Below are positions 20,565-46,793 of a stretch of 64,000 nt of DNA, in pieces. This DNA is from Luteolibacter ambystomatis (GTDB lineage: Bacteria; Verrucomicrobiota; Verrucomicrobiia; Verrucomicrobiales; Akkermansiaceae), in NCBI RefSeq assembly GCF_018137965.1, contig NZ_CP073100.1:4971754-5035753 (forward strand). The letters run 5' to 3'. Position 1 is the stretch's first letter, and each line of letters begins with the position of its first letter. The notes below the pieces were generated by a model. The model saw only the letters and a program-made list of their open reading frames with translations, searched no databases and had not been told where the DNA came from. The translations under genes and the position numbers were made by a program.

Positions 20565-21733
20565 ATGATCCGCCGATTCGCTGTCGTTCTTCCTGTTTTG
20601 ATGTTGGTTTCCGGACTCCGCGCCGCCGAGCCTGAGGCTCCGGTCCTGAAGGCCATCCCCGTGGATATCGAGGAGCTGCCGCAGGTCGATCCCACGCCGC
20701 AGCGTGTGGCTCCCTCCGCCGTCGCTCCGGCTGCGGCCAAGCCGCTGCCGTCCGCGGAGACGACCGCTCCCACCCGCCCGCCCCGGATGGCAAGCCAACC
20801 GGCGATGACGCGGTGCGGATCCAGATCTTCCTCGATCAGGCGTTGTTCGGTCCAGGGGTGATCGATGGCAAGCCGGGGCGTTTCTCGGAACTGGCGATGC
20901 AGTCGTGGAACGAGGTCCATGGGCACCCGGCGGAGGACTGGCAGCCGCTCCTCACGGAAGCCCGCAAGACGGTGCCGAACCCCTTCGCCGTGGCAATCGT
21001 GCCGGACGTGGTGAAGGATTGGGTCGATTCAACCCTGCCCACCGATCACGAAGGCCAGGCGAAGCGGAAGCGCATGAGCTACCGCAGCGTGATCGAGTTC
21101 ATGGCGGAGCGGTATCACACCAGTGACGAGTACCTCGCCGTGCTGAATCCGGGCAAGAAGCTCGGCAATCTCAAGGCGCGCGACTCGCTGGTGGTGCCGA
21201 ATGTCGTTCCTTTCCCGATCGAGATCATCACCGGCAAGAAATTCGAGGCAGATACCGTGATGAGTTCCCGCCATGTGGTGGTGGATACCAAGATCAACCA
21301 GGTGCGGATCTTTGAGGCCGCGCCTCCCGCACTCGTGGTTTCCGAAAAGGAAGCCGATGGCGTGGTGAAGGTGCGGCGCCCGAACCGCGGTCTGGTCGCG
21401 TCCTTCCCGATCACGCCCGGCCAGCCGAAGTTCATCAAATACGGCATCTGGGAACTCAAGAACTGCCTCGAACTGCCATACTGGCGCTACGACAAATCGC
21501 TGCTGGAAACCGGCGTGCGCAGTTCGCAATCGATCAACATTCCACCCGGACCGAACAGTCCGGTGGGCATCCTCTGGGCGGGGCTGAGCAAACCGGGCAT
21601 CGGCATGCACGGCACCGGTGAACCGGAAACGATCGGTCGTGCCCGTAGTCACGGCTGTATCCGCCTCGCGAACTGGGACGCCATCCGTTTGCCCACATTG
21701 ATCCGTCCCGGAGCTTCGGTGGAGATTCGCTGA
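20565..21733 (+). CDS. L,D-transpeptidase (YkuD family) with apparent frameshift
   Basis: The gene reads in two frames. From 20565 there is a signal peptide (RRFAVVLPVLMLVSGLRA) and a Pro/Ala-rich linker. The rest, from about 20783 to 21733, continues in the -1 frame and holds a peptidoglycan-binding-like region and a YkuD catalytic domain ending GMHGTGEPETIGRARSHGCI, with the active-site pattern SHGCIRLAN. The frame change falls at the run of four C at 20781-20784; one extra C would restore a single frame of about 390 codons. It may be a sequencing error, a real mutation or, less likely, a programmed shift. An internal GTG at 20813 opens the second frame but gives no signal peptide. The enzyme cross-links peptidoglycan in the periplasm. 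Confidence 0.8.
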
Positions 21734-23195: not shown

Positions 23196-23235
23196 CACCC
23201 TGCGACCGCTCCTTTCACGGGGAGCGGTCCGGGTG
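23196..23235. terminator. hairpin between convergent genes
   Basis: GACCGCTCC (23204-23212) and GGAGCGGTC (23221-23229) pair perfectly, and the stem is extended by CACCC/GGGTG on the outside. It lies in the 52 bases between the fucosidase stop and the stop of the opposite-strand gene at 23241. No clear T-run follows on either strand, so it is a likely but unproven two-way terminator. Confidence 0.5.
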
Positions 23236-23240
23236 GGGGA

Positions 23241-24155
23241 TCAATAGACCGGCTGGGGACGCCCGGCGTTTTCCAAGCGTCTTCTCGCCTGCTCACAGTA
23301 TTGCACGGCCCGGTCGAGTTCGCCGGAAAGGCGTGTCGCCCGCGCGGCCCATGTTTCCAAGGTGCCGGGAGGTGACTGGCTGCTGCCATTGCTGCGGGAG
23401 AGGGCTTCGTCACGCTGGGCGCGCAGGGCTGCAACCTTCGCATTCCATGCGTTGAACTCGATCTGGAGCCGGTCGAGGTCATTGCTGGAACCGGCGGGCG
23501 CCGGAGCCAGGTTGCCGCTGGGAACAGGAGGGACGGGAGCGTTGGCCGCCTGCTGGAGCGCCTCGCGTTCGCGTTTGAGCACTTCGAGGCGCTCATCGTC
23601 CTTCCATTGGAATCGCTCCTGCCATTTGCCGTCGAGATCGGCGGCGCTGACACGCGCGTTGCCGTCCGAATGGCTGATCTCCAATCCCACGGGGGTCACC
23701 CGCAGGATGGTCACGTCCTGGTAGCGGCGTCCGTTGCGCAGGACCAGTTCCGGCATCTTTTCGTTGGCGGCGGCATCCCAGATGCCCTTGCGATAGGTGG
23801 TACGATATTTCTCGTAGCTGTCCCCCACGGAAAGCAGCGAGGTCTTCAGTGCCGCGGAACGGGTCCGCAGGGAATCGAGTTGCAGTTGCTGGTCCACCAG
23901 CCTGCCCTCGATGGCCTCCAGTTCAGCGGCCTGTTCCAACCTCGGGCTGGCCGTGGCGTCGAGTTGTTTCAGCCGCTGAAGGCGGGGTGTCAGGGAGGTG
24001 AGGAGTTCCTCGTTGTTCCTGATGTCCTGGTTGACCGCTTTGTTGGCGCTGAGAAAGGAGCTGCGCTGGTCCGCGGCCACGGAGAGGAATATCCCGCCGA
24101 AAACCAGCAGGATCATGCCGCCCACCACCATGTAGGTGCCCGAGTTGTCACTCAT
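23241..24155 (-). CDS. membrane-anchored coiled-coil protein of unknown family (copy 3)
   Basis: This 304-residue protein has a short N-terminus, one membrane helix at about residues 8-27, and then a coiled coil to about 120. A YRTTYRKGIW motif leads into a compact beta domain at about 141-185 (NGRRYQDVTILRVT, then GLEISHSDGNARV and WQERFQW). The rest is a Pro/Ala-rich linker and a second helical stretch (225-298). It is a paralogue of the products of 26362-26955 and 24159-25061. It ends the minus-strand cluster and starts 3 bases after the previous stop. The topology suggests an inner-membrane anchor with the coiled coil in the periplasm. Function unknown. Confidence 0.78.
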   Translation of the reverse strand: MSDNSGTYMVVGGMILLVFGGIFLSVAADQRSSFLSANKAVNQDIRNNEELLTSLTPRLQRLKQLDATASPRLEQAAELEAIEGRLVDQQLQLDSLRTRSAALKTSLLSVGDSYEKYRTTYRKGIWDAAANEKMPELVLRNGRRYQDVTILRVTPVGLEISHSDGNARVSAADLDGKWQERFQWKDDERLEVLKREREALQQAANAPVPPVPSGNLAPAPAGSSNDLDRLQIEFNAWNAKVAALRAQRDEALSRSNGSSQSPPGTLETWAARATRLSGELDRAVQYCEQARRRLENAGRPQPVY

Positions 24156-24158
24156 CGC

Positions 24159-25061
24159 TCAGCGGGGCTTGGCTTGCGTGCGGAGAGACTCCACGCGGGC
24201 GAGAGCCGTGGCCCGCCGGGTCTGGAGGCTCTTGATCTTGGCTTGGAACGGGGCTGGATTGAAGATGTTTTCCCGCGCTTTGGCTATCTTCATCTCCCGT
24301 TCGGTCTTCTCGATCTCCTCTCCAAGCTGGGTGATGAGAATCTGGAGCTTTTCGATTTCCGCCGCGGCATCCACCGTCTGGGTGGCTTTCGCTGCATTGT
24401 TGGCCTCTCCGGCCTTTTGGATGCCTTGGTCGATGGTCGTGTTATAGGCGGCGGATTGGTCCCGCTCGCTGTTGATCGCTTCCTTTTTCTCGTTCGGATC
24501 GTATTGGAAATGCTCGCCGATCTCGGGAGGAAGGTTCTCGAACTCCACTCGGGCAGTGCCATCCTGGTGCTGGATGTTCATGCCGACGGCGTCCACCTTG
24601 CTCACCACCACGGTCTGATAGACCTTTCCGGAGAGCGTCTTCAATTGGGCATAGGTCAGGCCCTTGCCTTCATTGCGGATCTGGCTGCGGTAGGCGGCCC
24701 GGTAGGCGGCGTCCTTCGTCTTGACCTGTGCGATTTCCGATTGGATGCGGGAAACCAGGCTCACCTGGGTATCGAGATCGCCTTTGATCTCGCGGGCCTT
24801 GCGCTGCATCTGGTCCGCCTCCGCGGCGATGGTCCTGAAGTTGGCGCGGGTTTCGAGAACATTGGTCTGGTTGCCAGCCCAGTCCTTGAGCCGGTCGATT
24901 TCCTCCCGTTGTTCCTTGATCACCGATTCGATGCTACGGCCACCGGCCATGCTCTCGTCGAAGACGAAGAAGTAGAGGACGACGAAGCCACCGAGAACGA
25001 GGGCTGCCACAAGCGTGCCCATCACACCCGCCCCGCGGCCGCTGGAAATATCGAGTCCCAT
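24159..25061 (-). CDS. membrane-anchored coiled-coil protein of unknown family (copy 2)
   Basis: This 300-residue protein has one membrane helix at about residues 14-34, a long coiled coil (45-118), and then AYRAAYRSQI and the shared beta domain at about 144-187 (LSGKVYQTVVVSKVDAVG, then MNIQHQDGTARVEFENLP). A second coiled coil (about 215-290) closes it. It is the most diverged of the three membrane-anchored copies. It lies 12 bases after the lipoprotein gene at 25074, and the pair mirrors the arrangement at 26362-27330. I recognise no named family. Confidence 0.78.
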   Translation of the reverse strand: MGLDISSGRGAGVMGTLVAALVLGGFVVLYFFVFDESMAGGRSIESVIKEQREEIDRLKDWAGNQTNVLETRANFRTIAAEADQMQRKAREIKGDLDTQVSLVSRIQSEIAQVKTKDAAYRAAYRSQIRNEGKGLTYAQLKTLSGKVYQTVVVSKVDAVGMNIQHQDGTARVEFENLPPEIGEHFQYDPNEKKEAINSERDQSAAYNTTIDQGIQKAGEANNAAKATQTVDAAAEIEKLQILITQLGEEIEKTEREMKIAKARENIFNPAPFQAKIKSLQTRRATALARVESLRTQAKPR

Positions 25062-25073
25062 GGTTGCGGAAGA

Positions 25074-25400
25074 TCAGTTGTTCTTGAGAATGTACTTCTG
25101 CCGGTAGTCGGCGAAGTCCTTTTCGGCGGCGGCCTTCTTTGCCTCCAGTGAGGCAATCTCCTTCTCGATCCGGGCGATTTCCGCCGTCTGGGTCTCGATC
25201 TGCTCCTTGGCTTTCGCGAGATCCTTGGTGCGGTCGGGGACGGGTTCCTTGAGCTTTTCGTCAAGCAGGGCGACCTCACCCTTGAGGCGGGTGATTTCCG
25301 CCTGCTGTTCGTCCCGCTTGCGGACGAGTTCGGGATCTTCCTTGCAGGATGTGAGACCGGCCGCCAGCAGGACGGATAAGATAAGGTAACGGGATTGCAT
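25074..25400 (-). CDS. small coiled-coil lipoprotein (copy 2)
   Basis: This 108-residue protein has a lipoprotein signal (LILSVLLAAGLTSC) followed by a nearly continuous Lys/Glu/Ala-rich coiled coil that ends at YRQKYILKNN. It is clearly related to the product of 26965-27330: both carry a P-x-DRTK stretch in the middle and the same Y-R-x-x-Y-x-L-K end. The start at 25400 is set by the signal peptide; codons upstream to 25472 are not protein-like. It precedes the membrane-anchored gene at 24159 by 12 bases. Function unknown; the two products probably work together. Confidence 0.78.
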   Translation of the reverse strand: MQSRYLILSVLLAAGLTSCKEDPELVRKRDEQQAEITRLKGEVALLDEKLKEPVPDRTKDLAKAKEQIETQTAEIARIEKEIASLEAKKAAAEKDFADYRQKYILKNN

Positions 25401-25488
25401 GACGTGTGAACGGAGGAAAAGGAAAGTCGCTGAGGAACGGGGCCTCTTATGGCATATGGTTGCAGAAGGCAAGGCTGTGACGGGAACG

Positions 25489-26292
25489 TTACCAGCGATA
25501 GGTGCTGTAATAGCGGGGAGTGGAGCGACCGTTTCTCCAGATCCGGTAGGTACGCGGGGTTTCCGGGTTTTCCGATTCGCCGAAGCCGATCCGTCGTGAG
25601 AATCCGAAATTGGAGTAACCGGAAGAGCTGCCAGGCTGCACCGGGATGTAGGTATGGGGAGGGCGCGCCGGTGTCACTGGCGGGGAGGTCATGAATTGGT
25701 TGGCGGCCAGTGTCTGATCGGCTTCGCGATGATAGGCGGATTGTCTCGCCTCGATCTGCCGGACCGCCAGTTGCTCAAGAGATTCATCGAGGCCGAGGCG
25801 GTCGCACATTTGTTGATCGAGATCCTCCACTCTCAGGCGAGCGAACCCGGAAGAGTGGCTGATTTTCGCTCCGTCATCCCTGACTTCCTCCACCTTGACC
25901 TTCTCGAAGGTCGTCCCCGTGCGGGTGGTCAGGGTGGCGAACTCGAGACCCTTGGCCTTCCGGCGGGTTTCGGCCAGGCGATCGGCATGTGCCGCTGCCA
26001 AGGCGGTTTCGAGTAACGGAACATCGGCTCGGAGGGTGTCGCGATAGGCTTCCAGTTCCGCCCGATAGACAGTGAGGCGCGCGGCGGTGGCGATCTGATC
26101 GGCCCCTTTGGTGCGCCGGATCTCCATTTGTGCGACTTTGAACTCCGCCAGTTCGCGTTGCTGGACCAGTTCCATGCGTTTCAACTCCAAGCGCCGCCAG
26201 ACCGGATCGTTGTCCGCCGTGACCTTACGGGAACAAGAATTGGTCAACAGAGCCAAAGGGCAGAGCAACACCCACAGGCGGCGGGGAAACAT
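25489..26292 (-). CDS. lipoprotein with coiled coil and the shared beta domain
   Basis: This 267-residue protein has a lipobox (LALLTNSC) and a coiled coil at about residues 30-110. A diverged copy of the cluster's beta domain lies at about 125-168 (TGTTFEKVKVEEVRDDG, then KISHSSGFARLRVEDLD). The tail, from about 205, is rich in Pro, Ser, Tyr and Arg (for example RNGRSTPRYYSTYRW at the end). It combines the lipid anchor of the small lipoproteins with the beta domain of the membrane-anchored copies. It sits between the two lipoprotein/membrane-protein pairs, with gaps of 69 and 88 bases. Function unknown. Confidence 0.75.
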   Translation of the reverse strand: MFPRRLWVLLCPLALLTNSCSRKVTADNDPVWRRLELKRMELVQQRELAEFKVAQMEIRRTKGADQIATAARLTVYRAELEAYRDTLRADVPLLETALAAAHADRLAETRRKAKGLEFATLTTRTGTTFEKVKVEEVRDDGAKISHSSGFARLRVEDLDQQMCDRLGLDESLEQLAVRQIEARQSAYHREADQTLAANQFMTSPPVTPARPPHTYIPVQPGSSSGYSNFGFSRRIGFGESENPETPRTYRIWRNGRSTPRYYSTYRW

Positions 26293-26361
26293 ATGGCCGA
26301 TTTAATGCCATCTTGGCCATTCGGGCAAGCTTCGTCTGCCGTGTCGCAAGTTCGACACATG

Positions 26362-26955
26362 TCAATGAACCGGCTGGGACATGTCCCACTGGAAACGCTT
26401 TTGCCAAGTCGCGTCCAAATCGGTTGGGGAGATTCTCGCAAGGCCGTCCTGATGGCTGATCTCCATGCCGCCAGCCGTTACCCGGACAATGGTGACGTTG
26501 TCGTAGCGCCGCCCGGACTTGAGAGCCAAGGAGGGCAGCTTTTCACCGGCAGCGCTTTTCCAAACGCCTTCCCGGTAGTCATCCTTGTAGGATTTCAGAT
26601 CGGATTCGAGGCGGTCGATCCCGGCTTTGAGGTCTGCGACGGACTTGATGCGAGCCGAGTTTTCGCTCTCCGCCAACTCCAGCTTGTGAGCCAGAATATC
26701 AGCGTCCGCGGCGGTTTGCCTCCGGACTTCGATGGAGTGTTTCGCGGCAGCGATGTCGTCCTCCAGATCCCGGATCCGCTCGGTTTGTTCCTGGACCACG
26801 ACTTTGAACTCACGTCCATCCGGGGCGACGCTGTCGTTCGCCACGAGGAAGTGCCACGCCGTGCAGACGGCGAGGATGAAGACGAAGGAGATGCCACCGA
26901 TCACACCCAGCGAGCCGAACCTGCCGTTTTCGGAGATATTTTGAACCATGCCCAT
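26362..26955 (-). CDS. membrane-anchored coiled-coil protein of unknown family (copy 1)
   Basis: This 197-residue protein is the shortest membrane-anchored copy. It has a membrane helix at about residues 18-38, a coiled coil at 50-122, the motif YKDDYREGVW at 123-132, and the beta domain at about 148-191 (SGRRYDNVTIVRVT, then GMEISHQDGLARI and WQKRFQW). It then stops, so the second helical arm of the other copies is absent. It lies 9 bases after the lipoprotein gene 26965-27330, and the pair looks like one expression unit. A second ATG two codons in is an equally good start. Confidence 0.78.
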   Translation of the reverse strand: MGMVQNISENGRFGSLGVIGGISFVFILAVCTAWHFLVANDSVAPDGREFKVVVQEQTERIRDLEDDIAAAKHSIEVRRQTAADADILAHKLELAESENSARIKSVADLKAGIDRLESDLKSYKDDYREGVWKSAAGEKLPSLALKSGRRYDNVTIVRVTAGGMEISHQDGLARISPTDLDATWQKRFQWDMSQPVH

Positions 26956-26964
26956 GACCGTGGA

Positions 26965-27330
26965 TCAGTGTGATTTGAGAGGATATTGGGCCCGGTAGGA
27001 GATGGACTCTTTCTCCCGCGCGGCTTTGGCGGTTTCGAGTTGTTCGATCTCCGGGTTGAGGCGGGCGGCGGCTTTTTCCAAATCCTCCAGGCGCTTGCGG
27101 GATTCCTCGACCTCCTTGGTGCGGTCTTTGGGAAGAAGCTTCAGTTCGGCATCCAATCCGTCGAGCTCGGTCTGGAGGCGTTGGATCTCCTTTTCCTGGA
27201 CCTTGGATTTGCGGGTGACTTCACGTTTGCCGCATCCGGAAGCGAGAGGGAGCAGGCACAGGGCGGCGATCCACCAGAGTCTTCCGATTCGTTTTGCGCC
27301 TGCCCGGGTTGATTTCAGATGCCGATCCAC
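26965..27330 (-). CDS. small coiled-coil lipoprotein (copy 1)
   Basis: This is a 121-residue lipoprotein with signal IAALCLLPLASGC, preceded by a long basic N-terminus (about 20 residues with many Lys/Arg). The mature part is a coiled coil with PKDRTKEVEESRKRLEDLE in the middle, ending in YRAQYPLKSH. It is a paralogue of the 25074-25400 product. It is the first gene of the minus-strand cluster. The basic leader may be shorter if an internal start is used, but no better one is evident. Confidence 0.75.
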   Translation of the reverse strand: MDRHLKSTRAGAKRIGRLWWIAALCLLPLASGCGKREVTRKSKVQEKEIQRLQTELDGLDAELKLLPKDRTKEVEESRKRLEDLEKAAARLNPEIEQLETAKAAREKESISYRAQYPLKSH

Positions 27331-28062: not shown

Positions 28063-28764
28063 TCAGCGCTTCTTGGAAGGAGCGACGATGCGCGGGTTCA
28101 CGTCGGTGCCCCAGACGGTGTCCTCACCGGTGGAGAGCAGACCCTTGCCGCCCGGAAGGACGACGGTCTTGGTGTTCTGGTTGATCTGATACGACACGGC
28201 GCTGTTGTCGAGACGCAGCACGATGGCCTTCTGGTCGAACGGGTCGGAGTCGAAGGTGCCATCGGAGGATGCGTTGAGCAGCGGGGTTGCGATGATCGGG
28301 CGAGCCGAGTTACCGGTGGTGCTGAAGCCGGATTGGTCGTTCATCAGGTAGCCGAAGCCCACTTCGCCATCGGCGAGGGCTTTGTCACCGGTGATGACGT
28401 TGTCCGGTTTCTTGGTGTAGGGAAGCTTCGCGAAGAAGATTTCCTCGGAGGTGGTGATGCCGGCAGCGATGAGCTGGCGGAAGTAGTCGTTGGACGTGCC
28501 GCCCTGAAGGGTCAGCGAGGAACCAGTGGCCTCCTTCACGCTGTCCGCAGTGGTGCGGTCAGGGAAGTTGGAGTAGTCCGAGTCGAAGTCGAACAACGCC
28601 AGACCGATCTGGCGGGCGTTGCTCAGCGCCTGGGTGGACGCGGCCTTCTTCTGCTGCTTCAGGAGCATCGGGGTCGCGATGCCGGCGAGTGCCACGATGA
28701 TGGCGATAACGACGAGAAGCTCCACGAGAGTGAAGCCCTTGCGCCGTTTGATGGATGTTTTCAT
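28063..28764 (-). CDS. type II secretion/type IV pilin-like protein (prepilin)
   Basis: This 233-residue pseudopilin has the prepilin peptidase site in RRKGFTLVELLVVIAIIVAL: cleavage after G, methylated F+1 and E at +5. The hydrophobic helix is followed by a globular domain of the kind abundant in Verrucomicrobia and Planctomycetes (ARQIGLALFDFDSDYSNFP). The start at 28764 gives a short basic leader (MKTSIKRRKG). No pilus assembly genes are adjacent, so it is an orphan pilin. No clear Shine-Dalgarno precedes it. Confidence 0.88.
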   Translation of the reverse strand: MKTSIKRRKGFTLVELLVVIAIIVALAGIATPMLLKQQKKAASTQALSNARQIGLALFDFDSDYSNFPDRTTADSVKEATGSSLTLQGGTSNDYFRQLIAAGITTSEEIFFAKLPYTKKPDNVITGDKALADGEVGFGYLMNDQSGFSTTGNSARPIIATPLLNASSDGTFDSDPFDQKAIVLRLDNSAVSYQINQNTKTVVLPGGKGLLSTGEDTVWGTDVNPRIVAPSKKR

Positions 28765-45974: not shown

Positions 45975-46394
45975 CTATCCTCTGAAACTTCCGGGAGCCT
46001 TTCGCGTCACGCCATGGAGTTTATCGAAATCCTTGTCAAACGACGCCACGGGGAGCTTTTCCAAGATGGAAGCTGCGGCCAAATAGCAATCGACGAAATC
46101 CAGCCTTCCGACCCCGAAGAGCTTCAGCGCGCGCAAAAGCCGATCCAGTTCGGAGCATTGAAAGCCGGGACTGGAAATCAGATGCGAGAGCGCTTCCGCG
46201 ACCGCAGCCCGGGGATGTTTGTAAAAGCCGTTCAGTACGAAAACCGATTCAGCCACCACCATCGGAAGGACGATCAGGCGGATTTTGCCCTGCTCCGCCA
46301 GCGTCACCAATCCCGCCACTTCGACCGCCTGCTTTTCCGGTTCTCCCGTAACGAAGCGAACGATGGTGTTGGTGTCCAGCAATGCGGACTTCAT
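45975..46394 (-). CDS. PIN-domain toxin (VapC-like)
   Basis: This 139-residue PIN nuclease begins with the acidic site LLDTNTIVRFVTGEPEK, has a central VAESVFVL, then DFVDCYLAAASI and VASFDKDFDKL, so the conserved acidic residues are present. The start at 46394 overlaps the AbrB-type antitoxin stop in an ATGA. RNA cleavage, probably of tRNA or rRNA, is the family role. Confidence 0.85.
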   Translation of the reverse strand: MKSALLDTNTIVRFVTGEPEKQAVEVAGLVTLAEQGKIRLIVLPMVVAESVFVLNGFYKHPRAAVAEALSHLISSPGFQCSELDRLLRALKLFGVGRLDFVDCYLAAASILEKLPVASFDKDFDKLHGVTRKAPGSFRG

Positions 46395-46651
46395 CGAAGT
46401 CCCTCCTTGGCGGCATCCGCTTCCCACATTTCGCGGGACTTTTTCCGGGCTTCCTTGAACTCCACACCGGCTTGATCCGGAGCGGACTTGAGGGTGCCGA
46501 ATACGGCCATCGCCCCGGGCTGGTGACGGATGACCACGGCATCCCCTTGGATCTCATACGAAATCCGGTCGCCTGGTTTCAGATGGAGGGCCTCGCGGAT
46601 CTGGGAAGGGAGAGTGGTTTGGCCTTTGCTGGTGATGGTGGAATGCGTCAT
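46391..46651 (-). CDS. AbrB/SpoVT-type antitoxin
   Basis: This 86-residue DNA-binding antitoxin has STITSKGQTTLPSQIREALH and KPGDRISYEI, the swapped-hairpin AbrB fold. The start at 46651 is supported by AAGGAG a few bases upstream, better than the ATG at 46666. It should repress its own promoter and neutralise the PIN toxin. Confidence 0.88.
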   Translation of the reverse strand: MTHSTITSKGQTTLPSQIREALHLKPGDRISYEIQGDAVVIRHQPGAMAVFGTLKSAPDQAGVEFKEARKKSREMWEADAAKEGLR

Positions 46652-46793
46652 GGCTTCTCCTTGCATTAGAATTTTTCCTTACTTTTAGAATAAATCAAGG
46701 CGATGATGAAATTCCAATGATCCTTATTCGTGCCCACATCCCCGGGCGGATGGAGAACAGGACAGGAATGTCCCTTCTCCTTGGGGGCGAAAA

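Follow-up and report, generated by a model that had tools for sequence, protein, structure and literature searches.

A cluster of six genes encoding predicted lipid- or membrane-anchored coiled-coil proteins occupies positions 23241-27330 on the minus strand of the window (the whole 64,000-nucleotide stretch of DNA that was analysed, part of genome G000, a single 5.3-Mb contig). A preliminary description had placed six minus-strand open reading frames in this interval, and all six are present with the coordinates and order it gave. The features are as follows.

26965-27330, minus strand: P1, a 121-residue lipoprotein with a GTG start, an LASGC lipobox, and a coil ending in YRAQYPLK; a P4 paralog, part of the extra pair.
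26362-26955, minus strand: P2, 197 residues, with a single transmembrane (TM) helix, a coil, a YKDDYR motif, and a small beta-barrel; falls inside the P6 clade.
25489-26292, minus strand: P3, a 267-residue lipoprotein with a coil, a small beta-barrel, and a Pro/Tyr/Arg-rich tail; a single clade across genera.
25074-25400, minus strand: P4, a 108-residue lipoprotein coil with 80 residues from lipid Cys to YxxKY; core gene.
24159-25061, minus strand: P5, 300 residues, with a single TM helix, a coil, a beta-barrel, and second long helices (AlphaFold2 mean pLDDT 83); core gene.
23241-24155, minus strand: P6, 304 residues, with a single TM helix, a coil, a beta-barrel, and a C-terminal helical hairpin (AlphaFold2 mean pLDDT 86; ambiguous topology); core gene.
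23200-23230, minus strand: a perfect 9-bp inverted repeat (GACCGCTCC/GGAGCGGTC; z -4.9) directly after P6.

The cluster thus comprises two lipoproteins that are coils only (P1 and P4), a third lipoprotein that combines coil and barrel (P3), and three coil-and-barrel proteins with one TM helix each (P2, P5, and P6); the lipoboxes of P3 and P4 read TNSC and LTSC. Taking the ATG at 25400 as the start of P4, the intergenic gaps measure 9 bp (P1-P2), 69 bp (P2-P3), 88 bp (P3-P4), 12 bp (P4-P5), and 3 bp (P5-P6), in agreement with the tight spacing of 9 and 12 bases reported earlier for the two lipoprotein and membrane-protein pairs, P1-P2 and P4-P5. The coding status of the reading frames is backed by conserved relatives and by dN/dS values of 0.18-0.65 against locus L114 (0.18 for P1 against its ortholog there), which are rough, with dS near saturation. 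A scan for promoters and terminators returned nothing beyond chance; the inverted repeat past P6 lacks a following T run at 23200-23230 and was not listed by the terminator scan, and it may possibly mark the transcript end. Upstream of the cluster lies a pseudopilin-like gene (28063-28764, minus strand; KRRKGFTLVELLVVIAII) common to close relatives, and a YkuD-type L,D-transpeptidase-like gene with an SHGCIRL motif (20813-21733, plus strand) is found nearby, a location kept in close relatives only. Farther away in the window, two small genes at 45975-46666 on the minus strand resemble, by eye, a PIN-domain toxin/AbrB-type antitoxin pair.

Sequence comparison shows that the six proteins are paralogs built on one plan, a relationship that goes beyond mere likeness of layout. 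BLASTP aligns P2 with P6 (39% identity), P2 with P5 (29%), P1 with P4 (36%), and P3 with P6 (E 2e-7), and profile comparison links P3 with P5 (99.4% over 163 columns), P4 with P5 (95% over 75), and P4 with P6 (95% over 46). The common plan runs from an anchor through a coil of ~80 residues to a Y-x-x-x-Y motif, a small beta-barrel, and second helices. P1 and P4 stop at the motif, here Y-x-x-[KR]-Y, and consist of the coil alone, without the barrel; the Y-x-x-x-Y end is present in all of the proteins but P3. The domain of P2, P3, P5, and P6, with the consensus G..Y..V.V..V...G..I.H..G.AR....L, is a small SH3/Sm-like barrel. The long coils of the preliminary description therefore stand, whereas its picture of proteins that merely resemble one another in layout gives way to paralogy, and the barrel was left unnamed in it. 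In the tree, P2 falls inside the P6 clade and P3 forms one clade across genera, with deeper branches poorly resolved; P2 is a duplicate of P6. A solitary P2/P5-like gene also occurs elsewhere in three close genomes (L171-L173).

AlphaFold2 models built from family alignments place a TM helix at residues 11-34 of P5, followed by a helix at 44-131, the barrel at 136-184, and helices at 189-263 and 270-297; P6 is modeled as a near-continuous helix at 5-129, the barrel at 133-182, and then more helices. The overall pTM of 0.39-0.40 makes the relative placement of these parts unreliable in both models. The earlier prediction that all coils face the periplasm is supported for P1-P5; for P6 it is not, the charges on either side of its TM helix being inverted. 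The charges flanking the TM helix of P5 (mean -0.35 before and -2.1 after) fit a periplasmic C terminus. Those of P6 (mean -1.3 before and +0.8 after) leave its predicted topology ambiguous and, because of the inversion, would allow its domain to lie in the cytoplasm, although homology to the lipidated P3 argues for a barrel outside. Elsewhere in the same genome, a gene on the minus strand (L174:8267-9898; contig C1 of G000, ~2833266-2834897) encodes a lipidated coil and the same barrel running into a trypsin-like serine protease domain, called by eye from the motifs TAAHV ... GNSGG; the gene that follows encodes another lipoprotein, whose start looks coil-like. An extracytoplasmic stalk fits the fusion of this lipobox, anchor, coil, and barrel to a protease.

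The length of the coil is nearly fixed. P4 proteins have a median ungapped identity of 28%, yet in 30 of 34 the first Tyr comes 79-80 residues after the lipid Cys; a lipobox is found in 35 of 38 P4-type reading frames, for which lipid modification is predicted, and the coil itself is assigned from the sequence and its match to the P5 helix. From Met to Tyr, P5 spans 116-125 residues (SD 1.7) and P6 115-125 (SD 2.3; measured in the 17 sequences where the motif is clear). Beyond the Tyr the lengths are far more variable, with SDs of 18 in P5 and 36 in P6. P3 has 102-107 residues from Cys to barrel in 15 of 16 proteins, the outlier of 130 probably reflecting a wrongly chosen Cys, and the 80 residues of P4 plus the ~25 from Tyr to barrel in P5 equal the 104-105 of P3. 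Because coils match one another easily, register was tested separately: with the Y motif excluded, 56 shifts were compared, and the Y-to-Y register ranks first in every pair (P4-P5, P4-P6, and P5-P6). In this register the lipid Cys of P3 and P4 aligns with approximately residue 42 in P5 and residue 40 in P6, in both cases a few residues past the TM helix. As a helix, a coil of ~80 residues measures ~12 nm. The collinear, length-matched coils and the position of the P3 and P4 Cys just outside the P5 and P6 TM helices favor, without proving, the simplest geometry, a parallel bundle with every anchor in one membrane and ~12 nm up to the barrels. Common ancestry partly explains the equal lengths and shared register, so that these count as support and not as proof.

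We read 36 loci, the window included; they represent nine genera within a single family at the level of Akkermansiaceae. Contig edges aside, P4, P5, and P6 are adjacent, on one strand, and in fixed order, P6 not being seen in two loci of genus g28, and P3 stands ahead of this triad in 21 of the 36. The recurrence of the order in other loci takes the layout beyond chance, and its persistence in nine genera while the flanks vary between them suggests that the unit is self-contained; an absence of conserved pairing had been named in advance as grounds for rejecting the cluster as a system, and the order is kept. P1 and P2 accompany the core only in the window and L114 among the loci read and form a lineage-specific second pair. 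Full-length matches to P5, beginning at or near the first profile residues and extending to position 250, occur in ~46 of 195 sampled family genomes, in nine genera. Outside the family, P5-profile matches in the phylum sample lie mainly over the barrel region, and a few also extend into the coil. Named relatives are mostly deposited as Akkermansiaceae or Verrucomicrobiaceae metagenome-assembled genomes.

Within the window's own genus the set is present in 16 of 37 sampled genomes and the full set is missing in the other 21, some of which are incomplete; it is thus not required genus-wide. Among the 16 with the set, a stop interrupts P5 in genome G010, and in G018 (L039:8754-10020) P5 is spread over two frames ~240 bp apart, one with the N-terminal TM helix and coil and the other with the C-terminal barrel and helices, which is either a true break or an assembly fault. 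Five loci of the same genus (L037, L042, L043, L048, and L115) have a gene resembling Xaa-Pro aminopeptidase immediately downstream of the set or separated from it by one gene, a neighbor probably shared by descent.

A smaller version occurs in genus g19, which has small genomes, many nearly complete, and is probably Akkermansia. Here a single TM-coil-barrel protein is encoded, and in ~20 of 30 loci read its gene is directly preceded or abutted by one that the lipobox rule identifies as encoding a lipoprotein. In the 11 closest loci the lipoprotein scores as a relative of the L120 coiled lipoprotein, and in more distant loci it is identified from position and lipobox. By these signs, this Akkermansia-like genus carries a reduced lipoprotein and membrane-protein pair.

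We tentatively propose, at somewhat below an even chance, that the products of the locus assemble into a hetero-oligomeric envelope stalk serving as a fixed-height scaffold or ruler. The coils of the lipid-anchored P3 and P4 and the TM-anchored P5 and P6 would form a parallel, in-register bundle standing on the periplasmic side of the inner membrane, and this would keep barrels and distal helices at one set height in the periplasm, where they may serve as scaffold or ruler for a partner closer to the wall or outer membrane; P1 and P2 would be a second, dedicated pair. That lipid- and protein-anchored rods form one shared envelope structure is probable, since the genes for the two versions invariably occur next to each other. 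The broader claim of a new type of envelope machine, a self-contained, hetero-oligomeric periplasmic ruler throughout the family, with paralogs differing mainly in anchor and barrel and binding domains held at a fixed height, we regard as somewhat unlikely. Against a stalk stand the missing Y motif of P3, the inverted charges of P6, a possible outer-membrane location of P1, P3, and P4, the lack of a genomic neighbor pointing to a process in the flanks of the loci read, and the absence of the full set from part of the genus.

The preliminary description had also suggested an inner-to-outer-membrane spacer. In such a trans-envelope tether the outer membrane would hold the lipoproteins and the inner membrane the TM proteins, with rods end to end or antiparallel setting or bracing the intermembrane distance. 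Placed end to end, two rods of 12 nm would come to roughly the width of the periplasm (our own estimate), and most P4 proteins lack Asp at +2, which would send them outward by an E. coli rule that may not hold in this phylum. The pairing of lipoprotein and TM-protein genes also recalls the two-component spanin layout (PMC6139136). Yet the collinear, height-matched coils of P3-P6 and the lipid Cys at the TM exit suit one membrane better, and across two they would be a coincidence; we consider the tether rather unlikely. It ranks next after the ruler or scaffold, an order that follows, by analogy only, from Lpp, whose length sets the envelope distance, 14 or 21 extra residues moving the membranes 3 or 4 nm further apart (PMC5736177).

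The scaffold reading of the preliminary description is possible. As an assembly or regulatory scaffold for division, wall synthesis, or protein quality control, with barrels binding a client and coil length incidental, it draws on weak, sub-threshold similarity to DivIC/FtsB coils, on the related coil-barrel lipoprotein that bears a protease (L174), and on the frequent role of small SH3/Sm-like barrels in binding. The DivIC/FtsB scores are nevertheless below cut-off and typical for coils, a conserved neighbor was not found, and a coil of such constant length hardly looks incidental; we consider this version clearly unlikely. Even less probable is a lineage-specific expansion of paralogs with little joint function, adjacent from tandem duplication only: solitary coil-barrel proteins (L171-L173), solitary barrels across the phylum, and the origin of P2 as a P6 duplicate agree with it, but drift would break the triad order that nine genera keep amid changing flanks, P3 is one clade across genera, and the genes show purifying selection. 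If the set does fix or use periplasmic height, it would offer a natural system outside the Proteobacteria for studying how envelope geometry is measured, and its near-fixed coil length gives a clear prediction, that adding or removing heptads should matter. For this unnamed set of three to six related genes, spread over nine genera with a reduced pair probably in Akkermansia itself, no family model or described function was found.

Searches of Pfam, NCBIfam, and PDB sequences gave just sub-threshold coil matches, and no single characterized family matched all six proteins. Foldseek, an earlier suggestion and here run on P5, returned small barrels and helices only, at E 0.2 or worse, and the VIA-align rows cover C-terminal helical hairpins only, with Z scores reaching 10, no more than the tool itself gives as normal for helical bundles. 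The barrel may resemble SHD1 (Sla1 homology domain 1, PF03983), a small beta-barrel domain of which these genomes have many copies; the SHD1 structure 2hbp scores a Foldseek probability of 0.84 (E 0.67), with Hfq and designed SH3 barrels ranking alike. Membership in SHD1 was rejected: the profile-profile probability is 6.5%, and the SHD1 profile hits none of the six proteins, being absent from the matches of P2, P3, P5, and P6 at E up to 1, while the family is detected elsewhere in the genome. TIGR04211 (SH3 domain and membrane anchor) shares the combination of SH3-type domain, coil, and TM anchor, in what we take to be a different domain order; P4 reaches 18.5 bits (coil only) and P1 12.9 against its cut-off of 65. 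Two-component phage spanins (Rz/Rz1) likewise join a single-TM coiled-coil gene to a lipoprotein gene, but here the partners are paralogs, the TM partner has a barrel, and the genes are kept in a bacterial family with no phage context. Cluster neighbors are ordinary bacterial genes, and a tblastn search of P5 against 50,697 phage records gave no match; a plasmid or phage origin was set aside, P5 having no match in plasmid or phage records.

The literature searched yielded nothing on such genes, and the earlier statement that no system with this layout is described agrees with the lack of a naming match there and in Pfam, NCBIfam, and PDB. In the libraries and papers searched we found no described equivalent of a conserved operon whose coil-barrel products are paralogs anchored by lipid or by a TM helix, which is not proof that none exists. 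Every one of the 36 genomes tested has L,D-transpeptidases, whether or not it carries the set, which makes their presence uninformative. The Lpp model is not among the best 25 of the 27 (P1) and 35 (P4) Pfam families matched. Covalent wall attachment of the Lpp type is unsupported, the C-terminal residue of P4 being variable: the Lys by which Lpp is attached to peptidoglycan is not conserved (K in 11, R in 10, and another residue in 16 of 37). P4 nonetheless resembles Lpp (Braun's lipoprotein of E. coli) in being a small, nearly all-coil lipoprotein of near-constant length with a C-terminal Tyr and basic residues, and differs from it in its coil of ~80 residues and in the TM-anchored paralogs alongside. 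As a kind, the locus belongs with the coiled-coil tethers and scaffolds of the bacterial envelope.
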